Assembly (NCBI RefSeq): GCF_013409305.1
Contig: NZ_JACBZJ010000001.1
Coordinates: 1,736,001-1,800,000 of the forward strand
DNA from: Cellulomonas soli
GTDB lineage: Bacteria; Actinomycetota; Actinomycetes; Actinomycetales; Cellulomonadaceae
Direction of reading: 5' to 3'
DNA length: 64,000 nucleotides
Position 1 is the first letter of the stretch. Every line of letters starts with the position of its first letter. Shown here piece by piece: positions 2,216-42,254 of the stretch. The notes under the pieces were generated by a model. That model saw nothing but the letters and a program-made list of their open reading frames with translations, was not told the origin of the DNA and did no database searches. The position numbers and the translations under genes were made by a program.

Positions 2216-3370
2216 ATGCACGACGCGGAGACGGTGCGACTGGCCGTGGCGAGCGCCCGGGAGAACCTGGTCGATCGCGACGTCCTCGCGGAGGTCGTCG
2301 CGCTGTGCGCGGTCGCCGGCGAGCACCTGCTGGTGATCGGCCCGCCCGGGACGGCCAAGTCGCAGGTCGTCCGCCTCGTGGCCGAGCGGATGGGCGGTCG
2401 CTACTTCGAGTACCTGCTGGGGCGGTTCACCGAGCCGAACGAGATCTTCGGGCCGGTGGACCTGCGTCGGCTGCGCGAGGGCGTCGTCGAGATCGAGACG
2501 GCGGGGATGCTCCCCGAGGCCGAGGTGGCGTTCCTCGACGAGGTCTTCCTCGGTTCGACCGCGATCCTCAACACCCTGCTGAGCATCCTCAACGAGCGCA
2601 CGTTCCGGCGGGGGCGCACGGCCATGCGCGTGCCGCTCCGAGTGTGCGTGGGCGCCTCGAACAGCCTCCCGGAGGACCCCGCACTCGCTGCGTTCGCCGA
2701 CCGGTTCCTCGCGCGGGTCTTCGTCGAACCGGTACCCGATGCCCGGCTGGAGGAGCTGCTCGAGTCGGGCTGGGCGGCGTCCCGCTCGCATGCCGTCCCA
2801 GAGCCGGGACCATCAGCGGCCGGGGCTGCCCCCGACGGCCCGGTCGTCCTGGCTGCCCTGGACCGCCTCGGACACTCCGCGCTGCGCTGCGATCTCAGCG
2901 GCGTGCAGGGCGATCTCGCCTCGGCGGTGCGGCAGATGCGCTCCGCCGGAGTGGCCCTCAGTGATCGACGGGCGGTGCGCACCCAACGGCTCGTGGCGGC
3001 TGCGGCCGTTCTCGACGATCGCGACCACGCGACAGTCGCCGACCTGTGGGTGCTTCCTCTCGTGGCCCCCACCGCCGATGCGCAGGCCACGATCAGGGAG
3101 GTCCTCGCCGACGTGCTCGCCCAGGGGCGCAGCTCGAGCCTGCTGGGCGCCGCGGAGGACTTCGCCCGCGGACCGGCAGCCCGTGCCGACCGGCTGGCGC
3201 GGACCGGGAGCGACCTGCTCGCCCGCGAAGGGGAGCTGCCGGCCGGATCCGAGCAACGCCTGCGGTTCGAGGCGACCCTGCGCGAGATCGACAGCGCCTT
3301 CGACCCCGCTCACCTTCCCGACCACCTCGCCGAGATCCGCACCCGGCTGGTGGACGCGGTCCAGGGTTGA
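2216..3370 (+). CDS. MoxR/RavA-type AAA ATPase of a bpX ternary system
   Basis: A 384-residue MoxR-family AAA+ ATPase. Walker A GPPGTAKS lies near residue 43 and Walker B VAFLDEVF near 105; the insertion NTLLSILNERTF and sensor-1 stretch VGASNSLPED follow. The segment LGRFTEPNEIFGPVDL is typical of the RavA subgroup. MoxR ATPases work as hexameric remodelling chaperones, usually with a von Willebrand A (vWA) partner. It is the first gene of a tight four-gene unit: its stop overlaps the next start, and a vWA-propeller protein and a bpX protein follow. The ATG at 2216 is chosen because a purine-rich CAGGGGGCG precedes it and homology begins there. Confidence 0.9.
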   Translation: MHDAETVRLAVASARENLVDRDVLAEVVALCAVAGEHLLVIGPPGTAKSQVVRLVAERMGGRYFEYLLGRFTEPNEIFGPVDLRRLREGVVEIETAGMLPEAEVAFLDEVFLGSTAILNTLLSILNERTFRRGRTAMRVPLRVCVGASNSLPEDPALAAFADRFLARVFVEPVPDARLEELLESGWAASRSHAVPEPGPSAAGAAPDGPVVLAALDRLGHSALRCDLSGVQGDLASAVRQMRSAGVALSDRRAVRTQRLVAAAAVLDDRDHATVADLWVLPLVAPTADAQATIREVLADVLAQGRSSSLLGAAEDFARGPAARADRLARTGSDLLAREGELPAGSEQRLRFEATLREIDSAFDPAHLPDHLAEIRTRLVDAVQG

Positions 3371-3831
3371 GCGCCTCTCAGCGTCCGAGCACCGTCCCGA
3401 GCGCCGTGCCGGCAGCGGTGCCGATCGCGTGGGTGCGCCGAGAGCCGCCGCTGACCCCGGCCGCTGTGACCGCCACCGGCAGGGCGTCCCACGCGCTCGC
3501 GCGAGCGACCTCGGCCCGGGTCGACGCGGGCTCGGCCGGCCTGCGTGCGGCCGGCCGCCGTGCCGACGGTGATCTCGACCGTCTTGTCGTGCTCGGCGAC
3601 ACCGAGGACCTGCCGTGGTGCGCGGGCGCGCGGTATCTCGGCTGGGAGGCAGGTGTCCTCGTTCCCACCGAGCGGCGTCCGACCGTTCCGACTGACATCC
3701 TCGCGGCCCAGGCACGGGCCCTCCTGCTGGGGGCTGCGCTCGTCATCGTGCTGCCTGATGCACTGGTCGGGATGCCGATGCCCGGCCGTACGGTCGACGG
3801 GCCGACCCTGCGCGCGTGGATCGGGGAGTGA
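3367..3831 (+). CDS. Small bpX5-like subunit of MoxR-vWA-propeller system
   Basis: A protein of about 154 residues. The frame has no ATG; a TTG at 3367 overlaps the stop of the MoxR gene (TTGA), which suggests translational coupling, and a GTG at 3433 is the alternative start. The core reads LGDTEDLPWCAGARYLGWEAG, then VLVPTERRPTVPTDILAAQA and a hydrophobic LLLGAALVIVLPDAL. I recall this pattern from the bpX5 domain described for MoxR-vWA-beta-propeller ternary systems; the subtype number is from memory. Its role in the complex is not established. Sitting between MoxR and the vWA gene supports membership. Confidence 0.65.
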   Translation: MSASQRPSTVPSAVPAAVPIAWVRREPPLTPAAVTATGRASHALARATSARVDAGSAGLRAAGRRADGDLDRLVVLGDTEDLPWCAGARYLGWEAGVLVPTERRPTVPTDILAAQARALLLGAALVIVLPDALVGMPMPGRTVDGPTLRAWIGE

Positions 3832-3835
3832 CGTC

Positions 3836-5548
3836 GTGGAAGGCATCCGGTGGACGGGTCGGGCCGAGCTGCCCTCGCCGCTGCACGGCTGGGCTGCGGC
3901 GTTCGCGGCGCTCACCCCGGCGGTGCTCTCGGGTGTCATGCCCATGCTGCACCGGCTCGACGAGCTCGTCTCGCGCCACGGAGACGCCGAGTCGGCCACC
4001 GGAGAGCCCGCCGGCCTGGCGGGTCTGAGCACCCGCGGCATCCCCGAAAGACTGCTGGTCTCGGAGTGGCTGCTGGCCGAGGAGCTCCCGGAGGAGTTCC
4101 TGCGTCGCGCAGCCTCGCGTGAGCTCCTGCACCTCGACACCGCCTACCGGCAGGCCCCGCCGACCGGCACCACGAAGGTGGTCGTGGACGTCGGTCCCGC
4201 TCAAGCCGGAGCTGCGCGTCTGGTCCAGCTCGCCGCCCTGGTGGTCCTGCACCGGAGGGCTCGCAGCCAGGGTGCCGATCTCGAGCTGGGCGTGCTCGGC
4301 GAGCCGGCCGACAGGTGGCACGGCGGCGAGCTGCCCGAGCTGCTCCGCACGTGGCTGAGCGCGCGGAGGGCCTCCGAGCCGACCCCGGACGAGGTTCGCG
4401 CCCGCCACGAGTCCGCCGACCGGGCGTGGTTCCTGCTCGCCCCCGGGCTGGCCGCAGGCCTGCGCGGGAGCGGTCTGCCCAGCCGCCGGGTGCTCACGGC
4501 CGACGAGGCCGACTGGGACGATGCCGGAGTCGTCGCGGCGAGGGTCGTGCTGGCCGGTGAGGGCGTCCACCTGCCGCTGCCGCCCCATCCCGTCGGCGTG
4601 CGGGTGCTCCGCGGCGAGGGCTTCCGGCGCATCCCGGCGGCCGGCAGCGACCCGCAGGACAGCGCAGCTGTCCCATTTCTCAGGAGCGCAGGTTTCACGG
4701 GGACCTCTCGGAAGCTGGTCGGTCGTGGGGTGGGGGAGGGCGATGTCGTCACCGCCGACACCGGTGCGGGGGCACGACCAGCGCGGGTGCGTGTGCACCG
4801 CTTCTCCGGTGCTGTGATCGCGGCGTCCGTCAGCGGGCGTCGCATGATCGTCGTGCACCAGCACGGAGCCGTGGTGAAGGTCTCGGTCGTCGGCAGGCGC
4901 CTCGGCGACTGGCACGGGGTCACCTTCCCGCGAGAGGTGTGGGGGTTGTCCTCCGCGGATCTCGCCGAGATCGTCGCCGGGCCATTGCAGGCGGTGCACC
5001 ACGCGGGCGGGTCTCTGTGGATCCGAGTCCCTTCCGGTTGGTACCTGGTCGATCCGTCTCTCGATGTCGTGCCGGCGGCGGCCACCGTGCTGGTCACTCC
5101 CACGGGTCCGGACTCCGTGACCGAGGTCGGGCGTCAACCGGCGTGCCTGTGGACGCGCCATGGCGTGCTCGGGGATGTCTCGGCCGATGCGCCAGCGGTG
5201 GGCGGCGGTGGATGGGTCGCCGCACAGGCGGACCCGGGTCGCTGGGTTCTGGTCGGGCCCAGCAACGGTCGTCATGAGTTGCGCGTGGCGTCCGGCGACG
5301 AGCCGGTCGGGTTGGTCACGCTCTCCGCCGTGCCGCACCTGGTGGTGCGGTCGGCCGCCGGGCTGCTGCTGCGGCTCGTCGGGCCCGGCGGCACCCGCAC
5401 GCTCACGGGGCTGTCCGGCGAGGTCCAGCGCCTGTCCGTGCACCCCTCGTTGCCGATCCTTGCTCGCGACCTCGACGACGGTCGTGTCGAGATCCACGAC
5501 CTCCTCGCAAGCACGCGGCTGGGCGTCTTCTCAGGGAGCCTGGGATGA
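3836..5548 (+). CDS. vWA-like / beta-propeller protein of MoxR ternary system
   Basis: A 570-residue protein starting at GTG 3836 behind GGGGAG. The N-terminal 260 residues look like a degenerate vWA domain: VVVDVGPAQAGAARLVQLAA near 115 occupies the position of the metal-binding DxSxS motif but lacks the two serines, so metal binding may be lost. The C-terminal half is made of short beta-rich blades (for example GAVIAASVSGRRMIVVHQH and GGSLWIRVPSGWYLVDP) consistent with a propeller. MoxR-vWA-propeller ternary systems (bpX families) are described as NTP-dependent conflict systems. The stop overlaps the next ATG, so subunits are probably made together. Confidence 0.7.
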   Translation: MEGIRWTGRAELPSPLHGWAAAFAALTPAVLSGVMPMLHRLDELVSRHGDAESATGEPAGLAGLSTRGIPERLLVSEWLLAEELPEEFLRRAASRELLHLDTAYRQAPPTGTTKVVVDVGPAQAGAARLVQLAALVVLHRRARSQGADLELGVLGEPADRWHGGELPELLRTWLSARRASEPTPDEVRARHESADRAWFLLAPGLAAGLRGSGLPSRRVLTADEADWDDAGVVAARVVLAGEGVHLPLPPHPVGVRVLRGEGFRRIPAAGSDPQDSAAVPFLRSAGFTGTSRKLVGRGVGEGDVVTADTGAGARPARVRVHRFSGAVIAASVSGRRMIVVHQHGAVVKVSVVGRRLGDWHGVTFPREVWGLSSADLAEIVAGPLQAVHHAGGSLWIRVPSGWYLVDPSLDVVPAAATVLVTPTGPDSVTEVGRQPACLWTRHGVLGDVSADAPAVGGGGWVAAQADPGRWVLVGPSNGRHELRVASGDEPVGLVTLSAVPHLVVRSAAGLLLRLVGPGGTRTLTGLSGEVQRLSVHPSLPILARDLDDGRVEIHDLLASTRLGVFSGSLG

Positions 5549-8070
5549 GCCCCCGGCCGCCCTGGTGGGGATCGACACCGGCCGACGTGCTCGTGATCGA
5601 CGCGCCGACGATCGGACCGGGCGCCGCGCGAGCACGGGTGCTGCGCGCCTGGGAACCCGGCTCCACGCTGCATCTCCTGCCCGACGGCAGATGGGCGCTC
5701 CGACTGGCCGTGGGCCGCCTGTGGCGCGCCGAGTCCGCGCCCGGCCTGCCGCTCGGCCGGGACGCCGACGGCCGCCTGCGGTGGACCTGGCACGGGGTGG
5801 CGCACCAGGCGGCGCTCGACGAGCTGCCTCGCGTCCCCTTGGTGGGATGGGTGGACCTGGCTGCGCTGCCGGTCGAGCGCCTGGTCCCGCTGGAGCGCGC
5901 GGTGGCGCCCGAGGCCAAGATCGTGGCCACACCGTCCCCGCCCGCGGTGGACCTGTCCCGTCTGGCGCGGGTCGGGCGTGACTCACGTGCCACCGCCGTG
6001 GCCGCCGAGCTCGCGCGACGCTCGGCCGAGGCGCAGGGGCGGGGACGAGGGGGGCGAGGGCGACAGGAGTCCGGTGGTGCGGTGCCGCGCCGCAACCGCC
6101 TCGCCGAGCTCGTGCTGCGATCGCCGACCGGTGGCCTGGTGACCCGGCGGCACGCCCGCTACCTGCGCGAGCTCACCGAGGACTTCGAACGCCGCAACTT
6201 CGACGCCGCACTGCGTCGGGCCATCGCGCTCACCGGTGACGGCGGCAGGCTGAGCCTGCGGATGCCGGCCCCGCGAGCCGGCAGGTTGAGTCCACGCACC
6301 GGCCCGCAGGGTCCTGGACGAGCGCTGGGCGTGGGTGGCGCGACGGTCGACGGCCATCTGCGGGCCCTGTACCAGCAGGCTGCCGAGCGGCTCGAGGCCG
6401 ACGCGCGTGTCGAGGAGGCGGCGTTCGTCCACGCCGACCTGCTGGGTTCCGTGGCGGACGCCGTGCGCCTGCTCGAGCGCCACGAGCAGCCCGCACTGGC
6501 GGCGACACTCGCCCAGGAGAGAGGGCTTCCGGTCGAGACCGCCGTCCGCTTGTGGTGGCGGGCAGGGGAGCGGGAGCGTGCCATCGACCTGGCGCGGAGC
6601 CGTGGTGCGTTCGCCGCGGCGGTCGGGCGTCTGCCCGCTGAGGACCGAGCGGCGTGGCGCCGGGAGTGGGTGGCGTTCTGCCGTGCGACGAGCGACCCCG
6701 CCGGCGCGGTCAGGGCTGCCTGGCCGGAGCCGGGCCTGCGCGACGAGGTGCGGTCGGACCTCGCCAGCGCGTGCGCCCTCGGCGGTGCCGATGCGGCCGA
6801 GATGTTCGCCCTGGCCGTGACCCACATGCCGGGTGACGGCGCGGTCGAGGCCGCCGACGGGCTTCTCCGACGTCCGGTGACGGACGACGCGCCGAGCAGG
6901 TTGCGGTTCGTGGAGACCCTCGGCGCCTGGGTCGTGACCGATCCTGCTGCCGACCGTCGCCTCACCGCCCAGGCGCTGCGGCTGCTCGTCCGAGAGCCGC
7001 GGCTGCTCTCGGATCTCACCGGTCCGGACCGCAAGCGGCTCGTCAACGCGCTGGCGGGCCGCGCCGACCCGCTCGCCGCGGCGGACCTTCCACGCCCCGT
7101 CGTGCCCCCGAACCGACCGGGCGTGGCGCCATCGGTCACCGTGGCGGGTGCTGGGCAGATCCCGGTGCTCGACGCCGCGATCACCTCTGCGGGTGTCCTC
7201 CTGGCCCTAGGCGACCACGGAGTTCGGCTCGCCGGCCCGGCGGGCCAGACCCTTGCGCGCTGGGACGTCCCGGCCCATCAGGTCGTGCTGGCAGACCACG
7301 GCGCGGCGGCCCTGCTCGCCGTCCGCGGGGACGCGCTCACCGAGTTCTACCGTCTCGACCTCGTCACCCGGAGGGTCGGCCGGTGGTTGACGTTGCGCCT
7401 GCAGAGGACGGCCTCCTCCTTCGGTGGTGCGGGCCTGCTCGCCTGCGACTCGAGGGGGATCGTCCTGCTCGACACCACGAGCAGCGGGGCGGCCCGAGAG
7501 CTCTGGCGGCAGCGTCTCGGACCCTGGGAGGTGGTCGTCGACCTCGCGCGCTCGCCGTCCCAGTTCGCGGCGGTGATCCGTGCGGACGGCAGCGGTGAGC
7601 TGCCGCCTGGGCTGCACCTGTGGCGGTGGACCTCGACGGACATGCTGCTTCGAGGTCGAGACATCGTGGAGCTGCCGCTCGCACCGGTGACCTCGACTGC
7701 CTTGAGTGCTGCGGGCCAGCTGGTCACGGTCCACGCGAGCACGGACGGGGCCGGCTCCGTCGTGCGGCGCCAGTATCCGTACGGGGGCGCGGCCATGAGC
7801 CAGCCGGTGGCCGAGCCGATCCAGGCCGTGGCGGGCGGAGCCGAGTGGGGCTTCGCCTCGCAGACGCCGCGCGGGCTGCTCGTGCAGGGCGACCGTGCGG
7901 GAGTGATCGGCCTCGCGGGGAATCCCTGGGAGGTGCTGCTTCCGGGTGCTGGCTCGGCGGGACTTCGGGTCGGCCCGCAGCGAGTCACGGTCTGGGCCCC
8001 GGACGGGCGAGTCGTCGCACTCGACACGGCTACCGGTCGCGTCCTGGCACGGTTCGTGACGAGCGCCTGA
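5545..8070 (+). CDS. Large bpX (bpX6-like) protein of MoxR ternary system
   Basis: An 841-residue protein whose ATG overlaps the previous stop (ATGA). Three regions can be seen. The N-terminal 150 residues are beta-rich. The middle region, about 190-500, is helical and solenoid-like, with repeats such as LARSRGAFAAAVGRL and ALAATLAQERGLPVETAV. From about 540 a beta-propeller-like region has blades such as GVLLALGDHGVRLAGPAGQ and VTVWAPDGRVVALDTATG. This resembles bpX6-type proteins of the ternary system as I remember them. It is the last gene of the operon. The helical middle could bind partners or the invader signal; this is inference. Confidence 0.65.
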   Translation: MSPRPPWWGSTPADVLVIDAPTIGPGAARARVLRAWEPGSTLHLLPDGRWALRLAVGRLWRAESAPGLPLGRDADGRLRWTWHGVAHQAALDELPRVPLVGWVDLAALPVERLVPLERAVAPEAKIVATPSPPAVDLSRLARVGRDSRATAVAAELARRSAEAQGRGRGGRGRQESGGAVPRRNRLAELVLRSPTGGLVTRRHARYLRELTEDFERRNFDAALRRAIALTGDGGRLSLRMPAPRAGRLSPRTGPQGPGRALGVGGATVDGHLRALYQQAAERLEADARVEEAAFVHADLLGSVADAVRLLERHEQPALAATLAQERGLPVETAVRLWWRAGERERAIDLARSRGAFAAAVGRLPAEDRAAWRREWVAFCRATSDPAGAVRAAWPEPGLRDEVRSDLASACALGGADAAEMFALAVTHMPGDGAVEAADGLLRRPVTDDAPSRLRFVETLGAWVVTDPAADRRLTAQALRLLVREPRLLSDLTGPDRKRLVNALAGRADPLAAADLPRPVVPPNRPGVAPSVTVAGAGQIPVLDAAITSAGVLLALGDHGVRLAGPAGQTLARWDVPAHQVVLADHGAAALLAVRGDALTEFYRLDLVTRRVGRWLTLRLQRTASSFGGAGLLACDSRGIVLLDTTSSGAARELWRQRLGPWEVVVDLARSPSQFAAVIRADGSGELPPGLHLWRWTSTDMLLRGRDIVELPLAPVTSTALSAAGQLVTVHASTDGAGSVVRRQYPYGGAAMSQPVAEPIQAVAGGAEWGFASQTPRGLLVQGDRAGVIGLAGNPWEVLLPGAGSAGLRVGPQRVTVWAPDGRVVALDTATGRVLARFVTSA

Positions 8071-8141: not shown

Positions 8142-9635
8142 TCAGGTGGTCGCCCGGGTCACGAGGTCGACGAGCTGCGTCACGTCGGCGTCCCCGTCGA
8201 GCGCCTCGGGCAGGGTGGCGGCCTCGGCGCGGAGGTCGGCGGTGCTGACCTGCTCGGACCACGGCCCGCCGACGAGCCGATCGGTCAGCATGGCGATGAC
8301 GAGGTCCTGGCGCAGGCGGGGCGACGCCTCGCGGGGCGTCGACGCGCAGTCGGACCCGGCCAAGGTGCCGGATGCCTCGACGGCCCGGCCTGAGTCGTCG
8401 AGGTAGCGCACGGTCGCCGTCACGAACGACTCGTCGGACCGGTCCTCGCGGAGGGTGACCTCGTAGAGCGCGGTGGTGGTGTGGCCCGCGAAGATCTCGC
8501 CGCCGTCGATGGCGTCGTTGCGGAAGTCCTCGTCGGCGACGGCGCGGTTCTCGTAGCCCAGGAGCCGGTAGCCGGAGACCTGGGCGGGGTCGAACTCGAC
8601 CTGGGCCTTCGCGTCGGTGGCGGCCACGACGAGCGAGCCGGTGAGCCCTGTCGCGAACACCCGCTCGGCCTCCGCGTCGGTGTCGACGTAGACGTGCCAG
8701 CCGTCGCCCTGGTCGGCGAGCTGTTCGAGCAGCTGGTCGTTGTAGGTCGTGATGCCGACGCCGACCGAGATGAGGTTGATCCCGGACTTGGCCTCGGTGC
8801 TGATCCGATCCAGGATCCCCTCGGAGTCGGTCTCGCCGACGTTCGCGACCCCGTCGCTGATGAGGATCACGCGGGTCATGCGGCCCTCGGTGCGCATCGA
8901 CATGGCCAGGTCGTAGCCGAGCGCGAGCCCGGCGGCGGCGTTCGTCGAGTTCTGGGGCCGGAGCTCGTCGATGGCCGAGAGGATGGCCTCTCGCTCGGAC
9001 ACCGGCGTCGGCTCGAGAGCCACGGAGGCCTCGGTCGAGTAGCACACCATGGCCACGCGGTCGGTGCGCTCCAGCGAGGTCACCAGCGTCCGCAGGGCCG
9101 CCTTGGTCGTCTCCATCTTGCCGGCCTCGCCCATCGACCCCGAGCAGTCGACGACGAGTGCGAGGTCGGCGTCGGCGCGGTCGGCGCGGTCGGCCGGCGC
9201 GCTGCTGATGCCCACCCGGACCAGCTGGTGGTCGGGCCGGAAGGGCAGCGCGGTGGCGTCGATGCTGACCCCGAGCCCACGCTCGGGCGCGGGGTAGTCC
9301 TGCGCGAAGTAGTTGATGAACTCCTCGGTGCGGACCTCGCTCGGCTCGACGTAGCCCCCGTTGGACACCGCGTCGCGGAAGCGCGTGTAGGAGCCGGTGT
9401 CGATGTCGAGCGCGAACGTCGAGAGGGCGTCCGCTGCCGGGTCGGTCATCCCGACCTGGTCCGCCTCCCCTGAGGACTCAGGGTCCGGGTAGGGCGCCTC
9501 GACGTCCTCCGGTGCGGGCTGGCTGTAGCCGGTGTCCTGGTCCTCGCTGCCGCTCGCGGAGCAGCCGGCCAGGGCCACCGCCACCACGATCGCCGCGCCC
9601 GCGAGACCGGTCATCCTGCTGTGGCTGATCCTCAT
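8142..9635 (-). CDS. YfbK-like vWA-domain lipoprotein
   Basis: A 497-residue exported protein. It has an N-terminal signal with lipobox VALAGC (Cys near 25), a linker, a conserved pre-domain (DIDTGSYTRFRD and EEFINYF), and a complete vWA domain with MIDAS DCSGSMGEAGK near residue 168, the Thr region, and ILISDG. A C-terminal DUF3520-like domain follows. This is the YfbK architecture. It probably sits on the outer face of the membrane and binds a partner through a metal ion. It converges with the bpX operon, 71 bp away. Unlike the operon's own degenerate vWA, its metal site is intact. Confidence 0.88.
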   Translation of the reverse strand: MRISHSRMTGLAGAAIVVAVALAGCSASGSEDQDTGYSQPAPEDVEAPYPDPESSGEADQVGMTDPAADALSTFALDIDTGSYTRFRDAVSNGGYVEPSEVRTEEFINYFAQDYPAPERGLGVSIDATALPFRPDHQLVRVGISSAPADRADRADADLALVVDCSGSMGEAGKMETTKAALRTLVTSLERTDRVAMVCYSTEASVALEPTPVSEREAILSAIDELRPQNSTNAAAGLALGYDLAMSMRTEGRMTRVILISDGVANVGETDSEGILDRISTEAKSGINLISVGVGITTYNDQLLEQLADQGDGWHVYVDTDAEAERVFATGLTGSLVVAATDAKAQVEFDPAQVSGYRLLGYENRAVADEDFRNDAIDGGEIFAGHTTTALYEVTLREDRSDESFVTATVRYLDDSGRAVEASGTLAGSDCASTPREASPRLRQDLVIAMLTDRLVGGPWSEQVSTADLRAEAATLPEALDGDADVTQLVDLVTRATT

Positions 9636-10225
9636 CGTTGCCCCCTGTGTCCGTCATGGCGTCCTGGGCCGACAGTAGGGAGCGGGGCGATCGTCGCGGG
9701 TCGGAAGTGGGCGCCCGTGATCGGAACGATGGGCTTCCGTGTCCCGATCGGTGCCGGTGTGGCCGGACCGTGACCTGGGGCTACGCCGTCCGGGTGCGAC
9801 TCTCGTCGTGCGCGACGGGGGTTTGGAACCCTCGGCGCCGGGCGCCGCCGGCCCCGGAGCCCATCTCCGCTACAGCCGGACATCCATCAACGCTACGCAT
9901 GGACGGCAACCAAAGCTACGGCTAGACATCCTGCTGCGCTACCGCGCGACGCGCTCGCCACGGGAGCCCTTGCCTGCCGCGGCTACACCTCGAGACCCAG
10001 GGTCCCGCCGTCTGGTGTAGCGGGGATGCCGCGGTGGGGTCGACGGTCCTTCGCGGTGGTGGGCCAGCGGACTCGGGCGGCGTCCTGGGCTCGTGTGCGT
10101 CGACGGCGAGCAGCGTCGCGCCCCTTGATGAGGGGGCTGGGTCGTTCGGCCTCGTAGGTCCACGTGCAACCTTGGTGGCGACGCGGCACGTCGCGTGAGG
10201 GGCAGGCCTTGACCTGCAGAGACTG
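9636..10225. other. 590-bp region without a gene
   Basis: No frame here has a credible start, ribosome site and protein-like composition together. GCTACACC near 9982 can pair with GGTGTAGC near 10014, forming a weak hairpin. Around 9822-9893 there is a tRNA-like antisense stretch that does not fold into a full cloverleaf. The right end is next to tRNA-Gly. The promoter of the YfbK-like gene (start 9635) should lie in the left part, but no clear -35/-10 pair stands out. Confidence 0.5.
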
Positions 10226-14385: not shown

Positions 14386-14407
14386 CCGTCGCTCGACCTG
14401 GTGTGGT

Positions 14408-14425
14408 CATACTGGTACCGGTATG
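14408..14425. promoter_or_regulatory. Palindromic operator before HTH-MNT gene
   Basis: The bases CATACTGGTACCGGTATG make an 18-bp palindrome with one mismatched pair. It ends 8 bp before the ATG of the HTH-nucleotidyltransferase antitoxin gene (14434). XRE-type antitoxins usually repress their own operon by binding such a site, so this is the likely autoregulatory operator. Confidence 0.7.
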
Positions 14426-14433
14426 GTCCGTCC

Positions 14434-14943
14434 ATGGACGCGGCCGCTCTCATCCGCACGGCCCGCGAGCAGGTGGGGCTGAGCCAGCTCGCGCTCGCGG
14501 AGCGCGCCGGCACATCCCAGCCGGCCATCTCGCGTTACGAGTCGGGCGCCAGCTCGCCGTCGATCGAGACGCTCGACCGGATCCTGGCCGCGGCCGGCGC
14601 CCGGCTGGAGCTCACAGTCGTCCCCTCACCGCGTCGCCTCGACGTGCGCGGCATACGCATGTCGAAGCTCCGTGACCACCGCGACCGCATCCTGCGCACG
14701 GCCCACCGGCACGGCGCCACGAACCTGCAGGTGTTCGGGTCGGTGGCGCGCGGCGAGGACGGGCCCGACTCCGACATCGACCTCCTCGTCGACCTCGACG
14801 TGCGCACCCGGGGGCTCCTGCCCGTCGCGGCCCTGCAGGACGAGCTCGAGGAGTTTCTCGGCGAGCGGGTCGACATCGCACCCCGGCAGGCGCTCGCACC
14901 GCACGTCGCGACCGCCGCCCTCGCAGAGGCAGTCCCGCTGTGA
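14434..14943 (+). CDS. mntA: XRE HTH-MNT nucleotidyltransferase antitoxin
   Basis: A 169-residue fusion. Residues 1-60 are an XRE helix-turn-helix (LSQLALAERAGTSQPAISRY). Residues 85-160 are a minimal nucleotidyltransferase with the full signature GSVARGEDGPDSDID, i.e. GSx10DxD. MNT antitoxins of HEPN-MNT pairs neutralise the HEPN RNase by adding AMP units to a tyrosine next to its active site. The fused DNA-binding domain fits autoregulation through the palindrome just upstream. The stop overlaps the GTG of the toxin gene. The gene symbol follows the characterised MntA-HepT pair and marks family only. Confidence 0.88.
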   Translation: MDAAALIRTAREQVGLSQLALAERAGTSQPAISRYESGASSPSIETLDRILAAAGARLELTVVPSPRRLDVRGIRMSKLRDHRDRILRTAHRHGATNLQVFGSVARGEDGPDSDIDLLVDLDVRTRGLLPVAALQDELEEFLGERVDIAPRQALAPHVATAALAEAVPL

Positions 14944-28722: not shown

Positions 28723-30006
28723 GTGCGCGCCACACGAGCGATTGCCACCTCCGCGGTCGCAGTTCTGCTGGTCGCAGCAGGCGTCGCCGGGGGCATGCTG
28801 CTCCACTCGCCCGACGAGCACGTCACGGTCGACGTCCCGCAGAGCGTGCTCACCGCCCCGGTCGAGTCTCGACCGCTGACGACGCAGTACACGGGCACGG
28901 GTACCTTCTCCACCGGCGCCGAGCTGACCGTGTCCGTGGCCGCACCCGCCGGGATGAGTGCTGTCGTGACCGCCGCACCGGTCGCAGCAGGAGCGGACGT
29001 CCAGCTGTGCGACGCGCTGATCGAGGTCAGCGGACGCCCGGTGATCGCGCTCGGCGGAACTCTGCCGGCCTACCGGGACCTGACGGTCGGCGACAGCGGG
29101 CCCGACGTCAGCCAGCTCCAGCAGGCCCTGAACGACTGCGGCATCAAGACCACCGTCGACGGCACGTTCGGCACCGCCACGGCACGGGGCCTGGAGAGCC
29201 TCTACCGGCGAGCCGGCTACAAGCCCGTCTCATCCGCCACAGCGGCACTGACCCCCACCACCGCATCCGGCGACGGAGCCACCACGACCAGCACCGCGAC
29301 CCCGACGGTCACCACGGCCCAGGTCACCACAGCGGCGTATCAGCGTGCGGCAGCCGACGAAGCCGACCCGTCGGCCACGGCACCACCGGCCGAGACCGCC
29401 GCCCCGACACCGACACCGAGCCCCGCACCGACGGCCATCGCCGCCCGAGGTGAGCTGCTGTTCGTGCCAGCCGCGGCGCGAGTCGTCAGCATCGGAGCCG
29501 TCGGTGCCGTCATCGACACCCAACCCGCGCTGCGCCTGACCCTCACGGGAGACAGGTTCACGATCGCGTTCAGTGCGGCCCAACGCGCAGCAATCGCCGC
29601 CGGCACGCCCGTGACGATCAGCCGCGACGCGTGGACCATCACCCTTCCCTTGCCGCAGCTCCCAGATCAAGCCTCCGTCGACGCGAACGGCACCCCGACC
29701 TACCCTGTTGCGCTCGACCTGCCGGCACCGGTGACCGCCGACTTCTACGGGCAGGCAGGGCAGTTCACGATCACGGTCGGCCAGGCCGAGCCATACGACC
29801 TGGTCGTGCCGGTGTCCGCCGTCTTCGAAGACACCACAGGAACGATGTACGTCCAGCGAGCGACCCCCGCCTCGAGTGCGATGGCCGCCCCGACGACGGA
29901 GCAGGTCACCGTGTCGGTGACCGCCTCGGCCGAGGGCTACGTCGCCCTCTCGGTCCTCGACGGCCACCTCACCATCGGCGACGAGGTGGTCATCGGTGAG
30001 CAGTGA
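28723..30006 (+). CDS. Exporter adaptor with peptidoglycan-binding domain
   Basis: A 427-residue protein from GTG 28723, one base after the lipoprotein stop. It has an N-terminal signal anchor (AIATSAVAVLLVAAGVAGGM). A PG_binding_1 domain lies near residues 120-165 (LTVGDSGPDVSQLQQALNDC and TVDGTFGTATARGLESLY). A Thr/Pro/Ala-rich linker follows, then a beta-rich HlyD-like C-terminal part (FTITVGQAEPYDLVVPVSAV). It is probably the membrane-fusion-like partner of the ABC exporter encoded next, with its PG domain fixing it to the wall. Confidence 0.8.
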   Translation: MRATRAIATSAVAVLLVAAGVAGGMLLHSPDEHVTVDVPQSVLTAPVESRPLTTQYTGTGTFSTGAELTVSVAAPAGMSAVVTAAPVAAGADVQLCDALIEVSGRPVIALGGTLPAYRDLTVGDSGPDVSQLQQALNDCGIKTTVDGTFGTATARGLESLYRRAGYKPVSSATAALTPTTASGDGATTTSTATPTVTTAQVTTAAYQRAAADEADPSATAPPAETAAPTPTPSPAPTAIAARGELLFVPAAARVVSIGAVGAVIDTQPALRLTLTGDRFTIAFSAAQRAAIAAGTPVTISRDAWTITLPLPQLPDQASVDANGTPTYPVALDLPAPVTADFYGQAGQFTITVGQAEPYDLVVPVSAVFEDTTGTMYVQRATPASSAMAAPTTEQVTVSVTASAEGYVALSVLDGHLTIGDEVVIGEQ

Positions 30007-30676
30007 TCCGCCGCTGCTCGAGCTGCAAGACGCAGCCCGTGCCTTTGGCGCCGGGGACTCGAGGGTTCGGGCGCTGAACGGCATCAGCCTCCAGGTCAGA
30101 GCCGGCACGTCGCTGGCCATCACGGGACGATCCGGGTCCGGCAAGTCGACCCTGCTCAACGTCCTCGGACTGCTCGAGTCGCTCACCGGCGGCCGCTACC
30201 TCCTCAACGGACGCGACACCGGTGCACTGCCGGCGCGCGAGATCGATGAGCTGCGCGCGAGCACCTTCGGCTTCGTCTTCCAGGCGTTCCACCTCGTGCC
30301 GTATCTCACCGTCGCCGAGAACGTCGAGCTCGGCCTGACCTACCGCCGCCGCCCCCGTCGCGAGCGCACGCACCACATCGACGCGCTGCTGGAGCAGGTG
30401 GGCCTGACCCACCGACGAGACATGGCCGTCACCACCTTGTCCGGCGGAGAGAAACAACGGGCGGCGATCGCGCGAGCCCTGGTGCGTCGCCCCCTGGTGC
30501 TCCTCGCCGACGAACCGACCGGCAACCTCGACGACGCATCCGCCGCCGACGTGCTGCGCCTCTTCGACGCCATCGTGGCCGGTGGGGTCGCGCTGGTGAT
30601 GGTCACCCACGACCTCAGCACGGCGGCACGAGCGGGCCAGCAGATCCACCTGCGCGACGGGCGAGTCCAGCCGTGA
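29996..30676 (+). CDS. MacB-type ABC exporter ATP-binding protein
   Basis: A 226-residue ATPase. Motifs are Walker A GRSGSGKS near residue 43, Q-loop FVFQAFHLVPYLTV, signature TLSGGEKQR, Walker B VLLADEPTGNLDD and the switch His in MVTHDLS. These are marks of the LolD/MacB subgroup. It starts at GTG 29996 and overlaps the adaptor by 11 bases; its end overlaps the permease start. It powers the MacAB-like complex. Confidence 0.93.
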   Translation: MSSDPPLLELQDAARAFGAGDSRVRALNGISLQVRAGTSLAITGRSGSGKSTLLNVLGLLESLTGGRYLLNGRDTGALPAREIDELRASTFGFVFQAFHLVPYLTVAENVELGLTYRRRPRRERTHHIDALLEQVGLTHRRDMAVTTLSGGEKQRAAIARALVRRPLVLLADEPTGNLDDASAADVLRLFDAIVAGGVALVMVTHDLSTAARAGQQIHLRDGRVQP

Positions 30677-32991: not shown

Positions 32992-34221
32992 ATGCCCACC
33001 GCCCCGGCGTCCGTCGCCTCGCTCGCCCCGCCTGCCTCCGGTGCGCGTCGGGGACGTGGCCGTGCGGTGTGGGGCACGACGTGGCGGTTGCTGCTGGCGT
33101 GCCTGCTGGGTGCCGGGGCGTTCGCGATCATGGTCGTCGACCCGCCCCGACCGACGCCCGGCCAGATCGTCGTGGACGTCGTGCTGGGCCTGGCGACGAT
33201 CGTGCTGCTGCCCTGGCGTCGCCGGTGGCCGTTCCCCTTGGCGCTGCTGGCGGCGGTGACGGCGGGCTTCTCGTCGTTGGGGTTGGCGGCCGCGGGGATC
33301 ATGGTGATCTCGCACGCGACCCACCGGCGGTGGAAGCAGATCGCGGTGGTCGGCGCGGTGTGGACGGCCTCGGGGCTGGTGTACGACCGCATCTCGGTGA
33401 CGCTCGAGCCGATGCACTGGAGCCTGGTCGTCGGTGGCGACCTGTTGGCGTACGCGTTCTGCGTGGCGACGGGCGCGTACATCGGGGGGCGTCGGGACCT
33501 GCTGGCGTCGTTGCGGGCGCAGGTGGAGGCGGCGAACCGGGAGCGGTTGGGGCTGGAGGACCGGGCCCGGCTGACGGAGCGCAGCCGGATCGCGCGCGAG
33601 ATGCACGACGTGCTGGCGCACCGGATCTCGCTGGTGGCGATGCACGCGGGGGCGTTGGCGTACCGGACGGACCTGACGCGCGAGGAGACGGCGGAGGCGG
33701 CGACTGTTGTGCGCGACAACGCGCACCGGGCCCTGACCGAGCTGCGGCAGGTGCTGGGGGTGCTGCGCGACCCGGTCGGCGGGCTCGAGCCGGACCGGCC
33801 GCAGCCGACGCTGTGCGACCTGCTCGAGCTGCTCGCGGAGTTCCGGGCGACGGGCACGCGGCTCGATGTCGAGGACACGGTCGGCGATGCGGCCGCCGAC
33901 CTGCCCGGCCCCGTCGGGCGCAACGCCTACCGGATCGTGCAGGAGGCGCTGACCAACGTGCGCAAGCACGCGCCCGGCCGTCCTGCACGCCTGCGGCTGA
34001 GCGGCACGCCCGGCGACCGGCTCGTCATCGAGGTGAGCAACCCGCTGCCCGTCACCGACCCGGGCGACGGCCTGCCGGAGGCGGCACCCGCGGTGCCGGG
34101 GGCGGGCATGGGCCTGACCGGGCTCGTCGAGCGGGCTCGCCTCGCCGGGGGTGAGCTCACCTACGGGCACCGGCCGGGCCACGTGTTCGTCGTGAGAGCC
34201 TGGCTGCCGTGGCAGAGCTGA
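32992..34221 (+). CDS. NarL-type sensor histidine kinase
   Basis: A 409-residue kinase. The N-terminal 170 residues hold four or five membrane helices (TTWRLLLACLLGAGAFAIMV, LALLAAVTAGFSSLGLAAAG and others). A coiled-coil follows (LRAQVEAANRERLGLEDRAR), then the HisKA_3 motif REMHDVLAHRISLVAMHAG with the phosphorylated His. The ATPase domain has NAYRIVQEALTNVRKHA and GMGLTGLVERARLAGG. No large outer sensor domain is present, so it probably senses the membrane. Its end overlaps the response-regulator gene. Confidence 0.93.
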   Translation: MPTAPASVASLAPPASGARRGRGRAVWGTTWRLLLACLLGAGAFAIMVVDPPRPTPGQIVVDVVLGLATIVLLPWRRRWPFPLALLAAVTAGFSSLGLAAAGIMVISHATHRRWKQIAVVGAVWTASGLVYDRISVTLEPMHWSLVVGGDLLAYAFCVATGAYIGGRRDLLASLRAQVEAANRERLGLEDRARLTERSRIAREMHDVLAHRISLVAMHAGALAYRTDLTREETAEAATVVRDNAHRALTELRQVLGVLRDPVGGLEPDRPQPTLCDLLELLAEFRATGTRLDVEDTVGDAAADLPGPVGRNAYRIVQEALTNVRKHAPGRPARLRLSGTPGDRLVIEVSNPLPVTDPGDGLPEAAPAVPGAGMGLTGLVERARLAGGELTYGHRPGHVFVVRAWLPWQS

Positions 34222-34892
34222 CCCCGGAGCCGACCCCGACCGTGCGCGTCGTGCTCGCCGACGACGACACCCTCGTCCGCACCGGCCTGCGGCTCATCCT
34301 CGGCGGCGACCGCAGCATCGAGATCGTCGGCGAGGCGGCCGACGGCCTGGAGGCCACCGAGCTGGTCCTGCGGCTGCGGCCCGACGTCGTCCTCATGGAC
34401 ATCCGGATGCCCCGGCGTGACGGCCTCGCCGCGCTCGAGGCGATCCGCGCCGCCACGAGCGACGTCAAGGTCGTCGTCCTGACCACGTTCGACACCGACG
34501 ACCTGGTGCTCACCGCGCTGCGCCGCGGCGCCGCCGGGTTCCTGCTCAAGGACACCGCACCCGCCGACCTCGTGGCCGCCGTGCACCTGGCCGCCGAGGG
34601 GCGCTCCACGCTCTCGCCGTCCGTCACCGACCAGCTCGTCGCCGCGGTCGCCCGTCAGCCCGACGACACCCGACGCCAGGACGCCCGCCGCCGCCTCGCA
34701 GGCCTGACCGCACGTGAGCACGACGTCGCCCTCGCCGTCGGGCGCGGCCTGAGCAACGCCGAGATCGCCGCCGAGCTGTTCATGGGCGTCGCCACGGTCA
34801 AGACCCACATCGGGCGGCTCTTCGACAAGCTCGGCACCGAGAACCGCGTGCAGATCGCCATCTGCGTGCACGACGCCGAGGTCGCGGGCTGA
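34209..34892 (+). CDS. NarL/LuxR-family response regulator
   Basis: A 227-residue regulator from GTG 34209. The receiver domain has DDDTLVRTGL, the phospho-accepting Asp in PDVVLMDIRMPRRDG, and Lys in FLLKDTAPADLV. The C-terminal LuxR-type helix-turn-helix reads GLTAREHDVALAVGRGLSNA and ELFMGVATVKTHIGRLFDKL. It is the partner of the upstream kinase (13-base overlap). The target genes are unknown. Confidence 0.94.
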   Translation: MAELTPEPTPTVRVVLADDDTLVRTGLRLILGGDRSIEIVGEAADGLEATELVLRLRPDVVLMDIRMPRRDGLAALEAIRAATSDVKVVVLTTFDTDDLVLTALRRGAAGFLLKDTAPADLVAAVHLAAEGRSTLSPSVTDQLVAAVARQPDDTRRQDARRRLAGLTAREHDVALAVGRGLSNAEIAAELFMGVATVKTHIGRLFDKLGTENRVQIAICVHDAEVAG

Positions 34893-37864: not shown

Positions 37865-39739
37865 TCAGCTGATCGCGAGCGTGTAGGTGCCGGTCGTGCC
37901 GGTGGCACCGGAGTAGTAGAGGACGCGGGCGTAGTAGGTCGCGCTCGCGGTTCCGCTGTTCGTGTAGGTGACGGTGTCGACCTGCCCGGCGCCGTACGTG
38001 CTGGTGGCGATGCGCGTGCCGGAGGAGTTGTACAGGTACAGGTCGTAGTCGGCGGTGGAGACCCCGGCGGTGAGCGTCACCGTGAGCGTCGCCCCCGCGG
38101 GGACGGGCACCGAGACGTAGTCGGTGTCCGAGCTGGAGCCGATCGTGCCGGTGAACGTCGAGGGTCGGGTGGCCGGGTCGGCCGTCGCCCGCGAGTTGTT
38201 CGCCTCGGACTCGACGATGGTGCCGGCCGGGGTCGTCGGGGTGGGCGTCGGTGTGGGTGTGGGCGTCGTGCCCCCGACCGCGGCGGCGACCGCGGTGGCG
38301 GCGTCGAGCATGCCGGCGCCGCAGCTGGTGCAGGTCGCGACGAACGGCTGGGCGCTCGACTTGAGCAGGGTCTCCACCTGGTCGGGCGTGAGCGAGGGGT
38401 TGGCGGAGATCATGAGCGCGGCGACGGCGGCGACGTGCGGCGTGGCCATCGAGGTGCCCTGGTAGTAGGCGTACGTGTCGGACCCGGGGGTGGTGGTGCC
38501 GGTGTTGAGGGTCGACAGGATGCCGTTGCTGCTGCCGCCCGAGGTGTCGCCGCCGGGTGCGGCGAGGTCGACGAGCGTGCCGTAGTTCGAGTAGTACGCG
38601 CGGGCCCCGGTCGGGCCGTAGGCGGCCACGGCGACGACGCCCGAGCAGTTCGCGGGGCTCGAGCCGGAGACGTTGGTGTTGGAGTTGCCGGCGGCGACCA
38701 CGACGACCGCACCGTTGGCGCGGGCGGCGGTGATGGCGTTCTGGCTGGTCGTGTCGCACGTGCCGGAGCCGCCGAGCGAGAGGTTCAGGACGCGTGCCGG
38801 GTTGGCGTTCGCGGGCACGCCGCTGACGGTGCCGCCCGAGGCCCAGACCATGGCGTCGGCGATGTCCGAGGTGTAGCCGCCGCAGCGGCCGAGGACGCGC
38901 ACGGGCACGACCTTCGCGGCGGGGGCGATGCCGGCGACGCCGAGCCCGTTGCCGGTGACGGCGGCGATCGTGCCGGCCACGTGCGTGCCGTGCCAGCTGG
39001 AGTTCGTGGCGGTCCAGCCGCTGGCGCACTGGTTGGTGGTGGTCCAGTCGCCGGGGTCGGACGCGTCGGTGTCGCGGCCGTTGCCGTCGTTGGAGACGGT
39101 CGTGTCGGAGATGAGGTCGTAGCCGCCGACGATGTTCGCCGCGACGTCCGCGTGCGGGCGGTAGCCGGTGTCGATCACGGCGACGTTGACGCCGGCGCCG
39201 CGCGTGGTGTCCCAGGCGGTGAGGACGTCGAGGCCGACCGCGGTGGTCTTCAGGTCCCACTGGTCGGCCCAGCGGGTGTCGTCGGGTGCGGCGGCGAGCG
39301 GCTGCAGGAGCCGGTCGGGCTCGGCGTACTCGACGGTGGGGTCGGCGGCGACCTGCGCGGCGATCGCCTGCACGTCGGTGACGGCCAGGTCCTTGCCGAG
39401 GGACCAGACCTGGGCGCCCTGCGTGGTGTCGCGCACGTGCTCGGCGCCGGCGCCGTAGGGCGCGGCGGCGTCCTCGATGCGGTTGCCGCGCACGGTCTGC
39501 ACGGTCGCGCCGGGTGTGGACCCGGGCGTCTGGCCGCGGTACTTCACGATGAGCCGGTCGGTGGTGCCGGGGTCGGCCGGCGCGGCGGGTGCCACGGCTG
39601 CCGGCGCTGCGGCGGGGAGGGTTCCGGGTGCAGCCCCGGGTGCGGCGACCGCGGCGAGCGCGACGGTCGTCGTGGTGGAGGCGAGCACGAGCCCGACGGC
39701 GACGGCGGCCGCGGCTCGTGCGTGGGTGGGAAGTGTCAT
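37865..39739 (-). CDS. Secreted subtilisin-like serine protease (S8) with PPC domain
   Basis: A 624-residue protein. A signal peptide (MTLPTHARAAAAVAVGLVLA) and a propeptide with DRLIVKYRG precede the catalytic domain. The triad is complete: Asp in VAVIDTGYRPH, His in SSWHGTHVAG and Ser in QGTSMATPHVAAV, with the oxyanion Asn in VVAAGNSN. A TPTPTPT linker leads to a C-terminal pre-peptidase-type PPC domain (ESEANNSRATADPA, LTAGVSTADYDLYLY). The enzyme is exported, self-processed and digests extracellular protein. The start at 39739 is chosen because it opens the signal peptide. Confidence 0.95.
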   Translation of the reverse strand: MTLPTHARAAAAVAVGLVLASTTTTVALAAVAAPGAAPGTLPAAAPAAVAPAAPADPGTTDRLIVKYRGQTPGSTPGATVQTVRGNRIEDAAAPYGAGAEHVRDTTQGAQVWSLGKDLAVTDVQAIAAQVAADPTVEYAEPDRLLQPLAAAPDDTRWADQWDLKTTAVGLDVLTAWDTTRGAGVNVAVIDTGYRPHADVAANIVGGYDLISDTTVSNDGNGRDTDASDPGDWTTTNQCASGWTATNSSWHGTHVAGTIAAVTGNGLGVAGIAPAAKVVPVRVLGRCGGYTSDIADAMVWASGGTVSGVPANANPARVLNLSLGGSGTCDTTSQNAITAARANGAVVVVAAGNSNTNVSGSSPANCSGVVAVAAYGPTGARAYYSNYGTLVDLAAPGGDTSGGSSNGILSTLNTGTTTPGSDTYAYYQGTSMATPHVAAVAALMISANPSLTPDQVETLLKSSAQPFVATCTSCGAGMLDAATAVAAAVGGTTPTPTPTPTPTTPAGTIVESEANNSRATADPATRPSTFTGTIGSSSDTDYVSVPVPAGATLTVTLTAGVSTADYDLYLYNSSGTRIATSTYGAGQVDTVTYTNSGTASATYYARVLYYSGATGTTGTYTLAIS

Positions 39740-39911
39740 GTCTGTCCTGCCTCTCTGTCGGAAGCACGGGGGACGACCTGCGTCGTCGGGGACACCGTAA
39801 AGGTGCCCCTGACGCAGGTCAATGGATACATGACAAGCATCTCCGGACGAGTGACGGCGGTATCTGTGCTGGTCAGACGTCCAAGACAGGTCGGCCGACG
39901 GGCCGCCCGGC

Positions 39912-42254
39912 ATGTCGCAAGCGTCCCGGCGACGACGGGTGAAAGTCGCCCGCCCGAGGGTGGCGACCGGCCGTCGGCCTCAGGATCGGGGTGTGGGTGT
40001 CGACATACCCGGTGTGCACCGAAGGCGGGCCGGATACCTCGTGTGCGCCGCCGTGCTGGTGGCGCTGTGGTCCGTCGCGCCCGACGGCCTCCCGAAGGAC
40101 GTGCTCTTCGTCGTCGTCGGCCTGCTCGGCGTCGTCGGCACCGTGGTCGGGGTCCGCACACACCGCCCCCGCGCGCCCGCCGCCTGGTACCTGCTCGCGG
40201 CCGGGCTGCTGCTCTTCGTCGTCGGGGACTTCCTCTACTCGGTCTACCTCGACCTGCTGCACGTCGAGCCCTACCCGTCACCCGCCGACTGGGCGTACCT
40301 CGCCGCGTACCCGCTGCTGATCGCCGGCCTCCTCGTGCTCATCCGCGCCCGCCGGGTCGGACGGGACCTCGCCTCGCTCGTCGACGCCCTGATCGTCGCC
40401 GTCGCCGTCGGCCTGGTCGCCTGGGTGTTCGTCGCGGGCGCGTACGCCGAGGCGACCGGCACCGGCCAACGGCTGCTCGCCCTCGCCTACCCTGCGGCCG
40501 ACGTCGTGATCGTGGCGACCCTCGTGCGGCTCGCCTCCGGCCCCGGCCTGCGCTCGGTGTCCTACCGCCTGCTCATGGGCTCGCTCGCCTCGCTCTTCGC
40601 CGCCGACGTCGTCTACACCGTGCTCGCCAGGACCACGTACGCCGACGGGTCCTGGCCGGACATGCTGTTCTTCTGCGCCTACCTGCTGCTCGGCGCCGCC
40701 GCGCTCGACCCGTCGATGCGCGACCTGTCCGAACCCGTGCTCACCGAACGGCGCTTCTCCCGGCGGCGGATGATCGGGCTCGCCGCCGCCGTGCTCGTCG
40801 CCCCGATGCTCGAGGCCGCCGAGCTCGTGACCGGGATCGACGTCGACGGATGGCAGGTCAAGGTCGCCAACCTCCTGCTCGTCAGCCTCACCCTCACCCG
40901 CCTCTACCTCGCCGTGCTCGAGGCCCGCGCCGAGGCCTCCCGCCGCGTGCAGGTGCAGGACGTCCTCGCCCACCAGGTCGCGCACGACGCCCTCACCGGC
41001 ATCGCGAACCGGGCGACCGTGCTCGACGAGACCGCCGGAGCGCTCGACCGCGTCGGACCCACCGGCCAGGGCGTCGGCCTCCTGCTCGTCAGCCTCGACC
41101 ACTTCCGCGCCGTCAACGACCGCTACGGCCACGGCACCGGCGACGCCGTGCTGCGCACCGTCGCCCGCCGCATCCGCCGGACCGCCCGGCCCGGGGACCT
41201 CGTCGGACGCGTCGGCGGGGACGAGCTCGCCGTGCTCGTCGAGGTGCCCGGCTCCGATGTGGAGCTCGTCGGCCTCGCCGTCCGGGTGCTCGAGGCCGTG
41301 CAGCTGCCCGTGCAGGTCGGCGACCGGGAGGTGCGGGTCACCGCGAGCGTCGGCGTCACCGTCTCCCGCGTCGGCGACACCGACCCCGACCGGCTGCTCC
41401 AGGAGGCCGAGGTCGCCGCCGCCCAGGCCCGTGGCGACGGGCGCGGCCGGGTCGTCGCGTACGACGACGTGCTCCGGGTCCGCATGCGCGAACGCGCCGA
41501 GCTCGAGAACGCCATCCGCAACGGCCTCGCGGCCGGGGAGTTCGTGCTGCACTACCAGGCGCTCGTCGACCTGAGCACGGGCGCGGTCACCGGCTACGAG
41601 GCGCTCGCCCGGTGGGAACGCCACGGTCACGGCATGGTCCCGCCGTCCGGGTTCATCCCCGTCGCCGAGCAGTCCACGCTCATCTGCGACCTCGGCCGCT
41701 GGTGCCTGCGTACCGCCGCCGTGCAGGCCGCGACCTGGTTGCGCGAACGCCCCGCCGGCGCCCCCGAGCTGCGTGTCGCCGTCAACATCTCCGGGCGGCA
41801 CCTGAGCACCCCCGAGATCGTCCCGGACGTCGAGCACGCGCTCGCCGTGGCCGGCCTGCCGGCCCGCCTGCTCGTGCTCGAGATCACCGAGACCGTGCTC
41901 GTCGACCGCCCCTCGGCCCGCGCGCAGATGACCGCGCTGCGGGACCTGGGCGTCGACATCAGCATCGACGACTTCGGCACCGGCTACACCTCGATCGGGC
42001 AGCTGCAGCACCTGCCCGCCAGCAAGCTCAAGATCGACCGGAGCCTGATCGCCTCGACAGCACCGGGATCCCGCGAGCTCGTCGCCCTCGTGGTGCACGC
42101 CGCACACGCGTTCGGGATGACCGTGGTCGCCGAGGGCGTCGAGACCACCGAGCAGCTCGCGACCGTGCGTGAGCTCGGCTGCGACCGCGTGCAGGGGTTC
42201 CTGCTCGCCCGGCCCGCCCCTGCGGACCAGCTGGTCGTCGTCGCTCCGCGCTGA
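39912..42254 (+). CDS. Membrane GGDEF-EAL cyclic-di-GMP protein
   Basis: A 780-residue protein. The first 330 residues hold about nine membrane helices. The GGDEF domain follows ([27 protein letters not shown]) with the active site reading RVGGDELAV, a GGDEL variant. The EAL domain from about 530 has [38 protein letters not shown] and KIDRSLI, so the phosphodiesterase metal residues are present. It probably hydrolyses cyclic-di-GMP; cyclase activity is possible but uncertain. ATG 39912 gives a basic tail; GTG 39993 is an alternative start nearer the first helix. Confidence 0.9.

Follow-up and report, generated by a model that had tools for sequence, protein, structure and literature searches.

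A complete beta-propeller MoxR-vWA ternary system in Cellulomonas soli with a replaced metal site in its vWA-like domain

We studied a four-gene operon at positions 2216-8070 of a 64,000-nucleotide stretch of Cellulomonas soli DNA (the window; contig NZ_JACBZJ010000001.1, positions 1,736,001 to 1,800,000, forward strand). All four genes lie on the + strand and are tightly packed, as an earlier note on this DNA had described: a bpMoxR AAA+ ATPase of 384 amino acids (2216-3370, ATG start), a bpX5 protein of 154 amino acids (3367-3831, TTG start within TTGA), a fusion of a vWA-like domain with a C-terminal beta-propeller, called gene 3 here (570 amino acids, 3836-5548, GTG start; identified from structure models, see below), and a bpX6 protein of 841 amino acids (5545-8070, ATG within ATGA). 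The MoxR and bpX5 genes overlap by 4 bases, a 4-base gap separates bpX5 from gene 3, and gene 3 overlaps bpX6 by 4 bases, the same junctions that had been noted before. The operon is a complete beta-propeller MoxR-vWA ternary system, a type already known, since it fits the systems of that name published by Kaur et al. in 2020 (PMC7159879). That paper treats them as predicted conflict systems whose mechanism is not known, which agrees with the wording of the earlier note.

Pfam models matched three of the four proteins above the cut-off of 27 bits: bpMoxR (PF20030) with 284.8 bits, bpX5 (PF19921) with 50.9 bits and bpX6 (PF19922) with 30.6 bits, the last match being confined to residues 5-75. 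Of the profile matches foreseen in the earlier note these three were found, and with all four genes present the bpX5 and bpX6 assignments and the completeness of the operon stood; gene 3 matched no Pfam family, vWA included. In alignments of relatives, query included, 46 of 46 members matched bpX5 and 37 of 39 matched bpX6. The bpMoxR match taken alone is unspecific, because the model also gave matches in 12 of the 14 control genomes and at four further sites in the C. soli genome (three above the cut-off); in the genome scan the operon scored 286 bits versus 62 bits for the next best place. The bpX5 and bpX6 models gave no match in any of the 14 control genomes. PADLOC, run on the four operon proteins, returned weak matches for MoxR (best mad8, E 1.7e-4) and none for the other three, and no usable match for bpX5 came from searching solved structures with its profile.

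Relatives were collected in two sets. A scan with gene 3, using one genome per species, gave 121 related loci. The 80 top-ranked ones were retained, a ranking that favours relatives of the query. Gene order was judged by the best-scoring open frame for each gene, and frames were split in some loci (L023, L078). In 75 of these 80 loci the four genes agreed in order and strand, and the remaining five are on contigs of 3.1-4.4 kb whose ends cut the operon; being repeated in so many homologous loci, the order is not due to chance. No neighbour family recurred in more than 6 of the 75 operons (flanks of 2 x 3-5 kb), and the unit is therefore the four genes. The distances of the four proteins co-varied (r 0.85-0.92). 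The second set, retrieved through words in common with the query and less biased, holds 115 aligned gene 3 proteins including the query (130 matches, of which 120 were listed and 6 of at most 480 amino acids were dropped before alignment).

The P-loop of the MoxR protein, GPPGTAKS (2339-2362, + strand), is of the GXXXTAKS variant reported for such systems in PMC7159879. Its residues 42, 44-46, 48 and 49 were kept at 99% in 78 aligned rows of the locus set, a figure that, like the bpX6 block values below, is biased because the two patterns used in the locus search themselves contain, respectively, a portion of the DxGPxQxGxxR motif and a portion of the finger segment (see below). The protein matched three solved sequences at E ≤ 0.001, all of them RavA (best E 9.5e-38), so that the earlier description "RavA-like MoxR" holds as a statement of similarity. 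Identity with RavA was rejected, as the NCBIfam RavA model PRK13531 scored 140.7 bits versus a cut-off of 681.

Gene 3 was folded in two structure models (m2fc3baf1b25f and mb8b1751c6b05), and these support a divergent vWA domain followed by a propeller of about seven blades (residues 280-570, 4673-5545, + strand; 28 predicted strands). The predicted folds thus support the vWA-propeller fusion that had been proposed. At the sequence level, no vWA match was found among 61 N-terminal halves of gene 3 proteins, query included (E 0.1), nor did the gene 3 profile match a vWA domain among solved structures at E 10; because gene 3 has no sequence-family match, the vWA and propeller calls rest on the models. 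The top four Foldseek matches were solved NorQD MoxR complexes, with NorD nearest and low TM-scores. The alignment ranges from the gene 3 model to NorD were 33-247 to 385-624 and 111-247 to 449-624, and residues ~50-110 (3983-4165, + strand), which precede vWA strand 1, would be the positional counterpart of the pore finger of NorD. Residues 56-110 and 111-160 are the best conserved part of gene 3 in the 115-row set, with a mean top-residue frequency of 0.69 each versus 0.39 in the propeller.

Directly after predicted vWA strand 1 (residues 112-117) stands the motif DxGPxQxGxxR (residues 118-128, 4187-4219, + strand), in the place of the DxSxS of the metal-ion-dependent adhesion site (MIDAS). 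In the window it begins DVGPAQ (residues 118-123), as the earlier note had reported: the first Asp of DxSxS is present and both Ser residues are absent. Among the 115 aligned proteins D118 was found in 110, G120 (the place of the first Ser) in 115, P121 in 114, Q123 in 106, G125 in 115 and R128 in 115, and position 122, the place of the second Ser, was variable (Ser in 9 of 115). W198, in putative strand 4, was kept in 114 of 115, and Asp was rare after that strand, where each of positions 199-205 held it in 0-4 of the 115 proteins. At the Ser and strand-4 Asp points the vWA-like domain thus lacks the DxSxS-T-D ligand set of MIDAS. The loss is not special to this operon. According to PMC7159879, the vWA domain lacks one or both of its metal aspartates in a subset of these systems, and the reviewer response there adds that such domains lack compensatory acidic residues and conserve other residues. 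What is new here is that the exchange is nearly uniform across the bpX5/bpX6 branch, spanning phyla. This favours the view that the binding site has changed over the view that it has decayed.

NorD offers a comparison for both parts of gene 3. The stretch that immediately precedes its vWA core, residues 403-448, extends into the pore of NorQ, and replacing this stretch lowered and did not abolish co-purification of NorQ, raised the ATPase activity and abolished iron insertion (PMC13036017). Exchanges in the NorD MIDAS left NorQ co-purification intact and the target inactive (PMC9976466). Set against these data, the position and conservation of the finger counterpart suggest that gene 3 may have retained the coupling to MoxR while its partner binding changed.

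In the bpX6 protein the middle blocks are the best conserved, and residues 4-183 were poorly conserved (0.25-0.32 per 30-residue block). The C-terminal blocks were equally variable (0.20-0.32). The middle part (approximately 6142-6744, + strand) is putatively TPR-like and helical, with a weak match to TPR_GEMI5 in 5 of 39 members (best E 0.0011). The C-terminal part (approximately 7132-8067, + strand) is predicted to be WD40/propeller-like from a weak profile match to LST8 (E 0.0016), with weaker matches to WDR26 and Apaf-1. Of the features of the third component, the bpX6 match and the variable N-terminus were therefore found, and the TPR and propeller parts were weakly supported. A crude scan, with a threshold of our own choice (19-residue mean hydropathy ≥ 2.2), detected a hydrophobic stretch in 40 of 81 bpX6 rows, and in the aligned region its peak began somewhere within residues 140-256; it occurred in 20 of 31 actinobacterial rows and 20 of 50 others. 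The other 41 rows, including the window, were below the threshold, and no membrane segment was seen in the window protein (hydropathy peak 1.52; 1.46 in Cellulomonas chitinilytica). With this segment missing, the bpX6 proteins of the window and of C. chitinilytica are predicted to be soluble and may be so.

The hosts among the kept loci were Actinomycetota, Pseudomonadota, Myxococcota and Acidobacteriota, with single bins labelled Chthonomonadaceae and Eremiobacteraeota. A tree of the 75 operons, built by a quick method with SH-aLRT support only, mostly followed phylum, with four changes of phylum label versus a minimum of three, and a branch supported at 100 had the Actinomycetota on one side. 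The exceptions were a Comamonas operon within a myxobacterial group and the Eremiobacteraeota bin among Oxalobacteraceae. Two copies (L037 of L034 and L007 of L017) were dropped before the tree and kept in the conservation and hydropathy counts of the locus set. Within the genus the operon was found in the C. soli genome and in 1 of 35 others, whose operon (L007) is identical to that of C. chitinilytica (L017) in the stretches compared; sequence identity between the proteins of C. chitinilytica and those of the window is 48-68%, highest for MoxR. In wider samples bpX5 exceeded the cut-off in 1 of 394 genomes of the class (C. soli itself, with one further weak match), and the vWA half was present in at least 1 of 396 of the phylum (again C. 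soli; six candidates scored per genome). A gene 3 relative occurred in 1 of 72,556 plasmid records, a 5.7-Mb replicon of an Embleya, and in none of 50,697 phage records.

Some loci departed from the compact layout. In Massilia rubra (L058, 4090-12368) five adjacent or overlapping open reading frames of the vWA-propeller type lie between bpX5 and bpX6, as if the vWA component had expanded in tandem. In two Archangium loci (L054 and L062, ~3280-6580) the aligned part of bpX5 lies ~3.3 kb beyond the MoxR stop, a distance of at most 300 bases in the 73 others among the 75 complete loci, and in Kitasatospora purpeofusca (L026, ~8700-10100) ~1.4 kb separate the vWA stop from the aligned part of bpX6.

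The neighbours of the operon in C. soli are sugar-degradation genes: a family 3 glycosidase, an acetyl xylan esterase, an aldose epimerase and a family 94 phosphorylase. A gene for a YfbK-like protein with a Pfam vWA match (8142-9635, - strand) ends 71 bases from the end of bpX6 and was present at 75% identity in only 3 of 35 genomes of the genus. An empty insertion site could not be shown: three relatives that lack the operon share the right-hand yfbK gene, and two of them also share the flank beyond it, but no conserved left flank was found. At 0.744 the operon differs little in GC content from its flanks (0.741 and 0.739), so the composition gives no sign of recent arrival. PADLOC was run on 28 of the 29 called neighbours, two of them with shorter starts, and all 20 matched families traced to four proteins: an ABC ATPase (29996-30676), a helix-turn-helix (HTH) protein (14401-14943, + strand), a subtilase-like protein (37865-39913) and a weak match at 34209-34892. 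The HTH protein, 6.3 kb from the operon, shows its HTH matches in the N-terminal half, and its C-terminal part matches the PADLOC candidate family PDC-S09 (E 2e-29). The excluded neighbour is a 2,750-amino-acid open frame upstream of the window (G000:C1:1725380-1733632; L091:3380-11632:+) with von Willebrand D and PPC domain matches, possibly a giant secreted protein. A defence island around the operon was not supported by the neighbour scan, by the sugar-degradation context or by any recurrent neighbour family.

The operon shares with the systems described by Kaur et al. the GXXXTAKS MoxR, the vWA domain with a C-terminal propeller, the lack of a conventional effector, and a third component with a variable N-terminus and a propeller-like C-terminus. 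It differs in its host, an Actinomycetota, whereas those systems were placed mostly only in bacteroidetes, planctomycetes, verrucomicrobia and proteobacteria; in the ~seven predicted blades of gene 3 against about four; and in a bpX6 without the membrane-spanning segment described for those systems, which is not strictly defining. With NorQD (PMC9976466, PMC13036017) it has in common a MoxR protein with a vWA partner and a segment before vWA strand 1 that by position would correspond to the finger; however, NorD has a MIDAS and ends with the vWA domain, whereas in gene 3 the MIDAS is replaced and the vWA continues into the propeller. The likeness to RavA-ViaA is that the window MoxR domain is most similar to RavA among solved structures, yet it falls far below the cut-off of the RavA model. 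ViaA is not known to have a propeller. Unlike gene 3, ViaA has a MIDAS motif (PMC9489729). Titles, abstracts and passages found by searching an open-licence library yielded no experimental study recognised as one of the propeller subtype; passages of PMC10907252, PMC8195603 and PMC12839542 concern other MoxR-vWA subtypes.

We consider it fairly probable that the system is a four-protein AAA+ remodelling machine of the beta-propeller MoxR-vWA ternary type that works like NorQD. The MoxR protein would form an ATP-driven ring, onto which the vWA-like domain of gene 3 would dock via the finger before strand 1, as the model and its alignment ranges to NorD suggest. Nucleotide-driven motion of the finger would twist the attached vWA domain and propeller against their partners, probably bpX6 (propeller to propeller) and bpX5, following the homotypic idea of the 2020 authors. 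The conserved DxGPxQxGxxR pocket would take the place of the metal-dependent site and bind a partner without the MIDAS metal. In C. soli the complex is predicted to be soluble, given a bpX6 that lacks the hydrophobic segment present in roughly half of its relatives. Its final target could belong to a conflict response or to the maturation of an enzyme or complex.

For that target, we regard as a serious candidate, with a little less than an even chance, a housekeeping or niche chaperone for the maturation of an enzyme or complex, the role of NorQD and reportedly of RavA-ViaA and CbbQO. The fold of gene 3, nearest to NorD, inheritance mostly within phyla and families, including the well-supported Actinomycetota branch, and the scarcity of plasmid and phage carriage are consistent with it. 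Client genes often adjoin MoxR-vWA pairs, and against a chaperone stand the lack of a constant neighbour as candidate client in the 75 operons and the patchy presence in the genus. On the inheritance and context evidence it is slightly likelier than a defence (conflict) system that would sense an invader and, past a threshold set by ATP, release an activity of the bpX6 N-terminal region, which we hold to be rather unlikely. The poor conservation of that region and the patchy distribution in genus, class and phylum point towards defence, but the bpX6 C-terminal blocks are just as variable and no effector domain was recognised in the operon proteins. A defence cassette that moves freely is disfavoured by several results: the sugar-degradation neighbours, the few proteins behind the PADLOC matches, the absence of a recurrent neighbour family, a tree that mostly follows phylum, and the plasmid and phage counts. 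Least likely of the readings weighed, and improbable in itself, is a reading that builds on the scaffold role suggested earlier, in which the vWA domain has decayed and carries no binding site itself. In its favour, the first Ser of the MIDAS motif is replaced in every aligned protein and the second in most, and Asp is rare past putative strand 4. Against it, the replacing positions are near-invariant, and drift would be expected had the site decayed.

The operon is ordinary in kind, another example of a published class predicted in 2020, and it offers a small, complete, apparently soluble four-gene version suited to expression and testing, for which the comparison names concrete residues (D118, Q123, R128 and the segment 50-110). 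We suggest only tentatively that the bpX vWA proteins form a distinct class of MoxR partner, which would combine a NorD-like finger, a metal-free near-invariant pocket and propeller-propeller twisting, with both Cellulomonas operons acting off the membrane. The near-uniform replacement weakens the simple reading of a missing MIDAS as decay.
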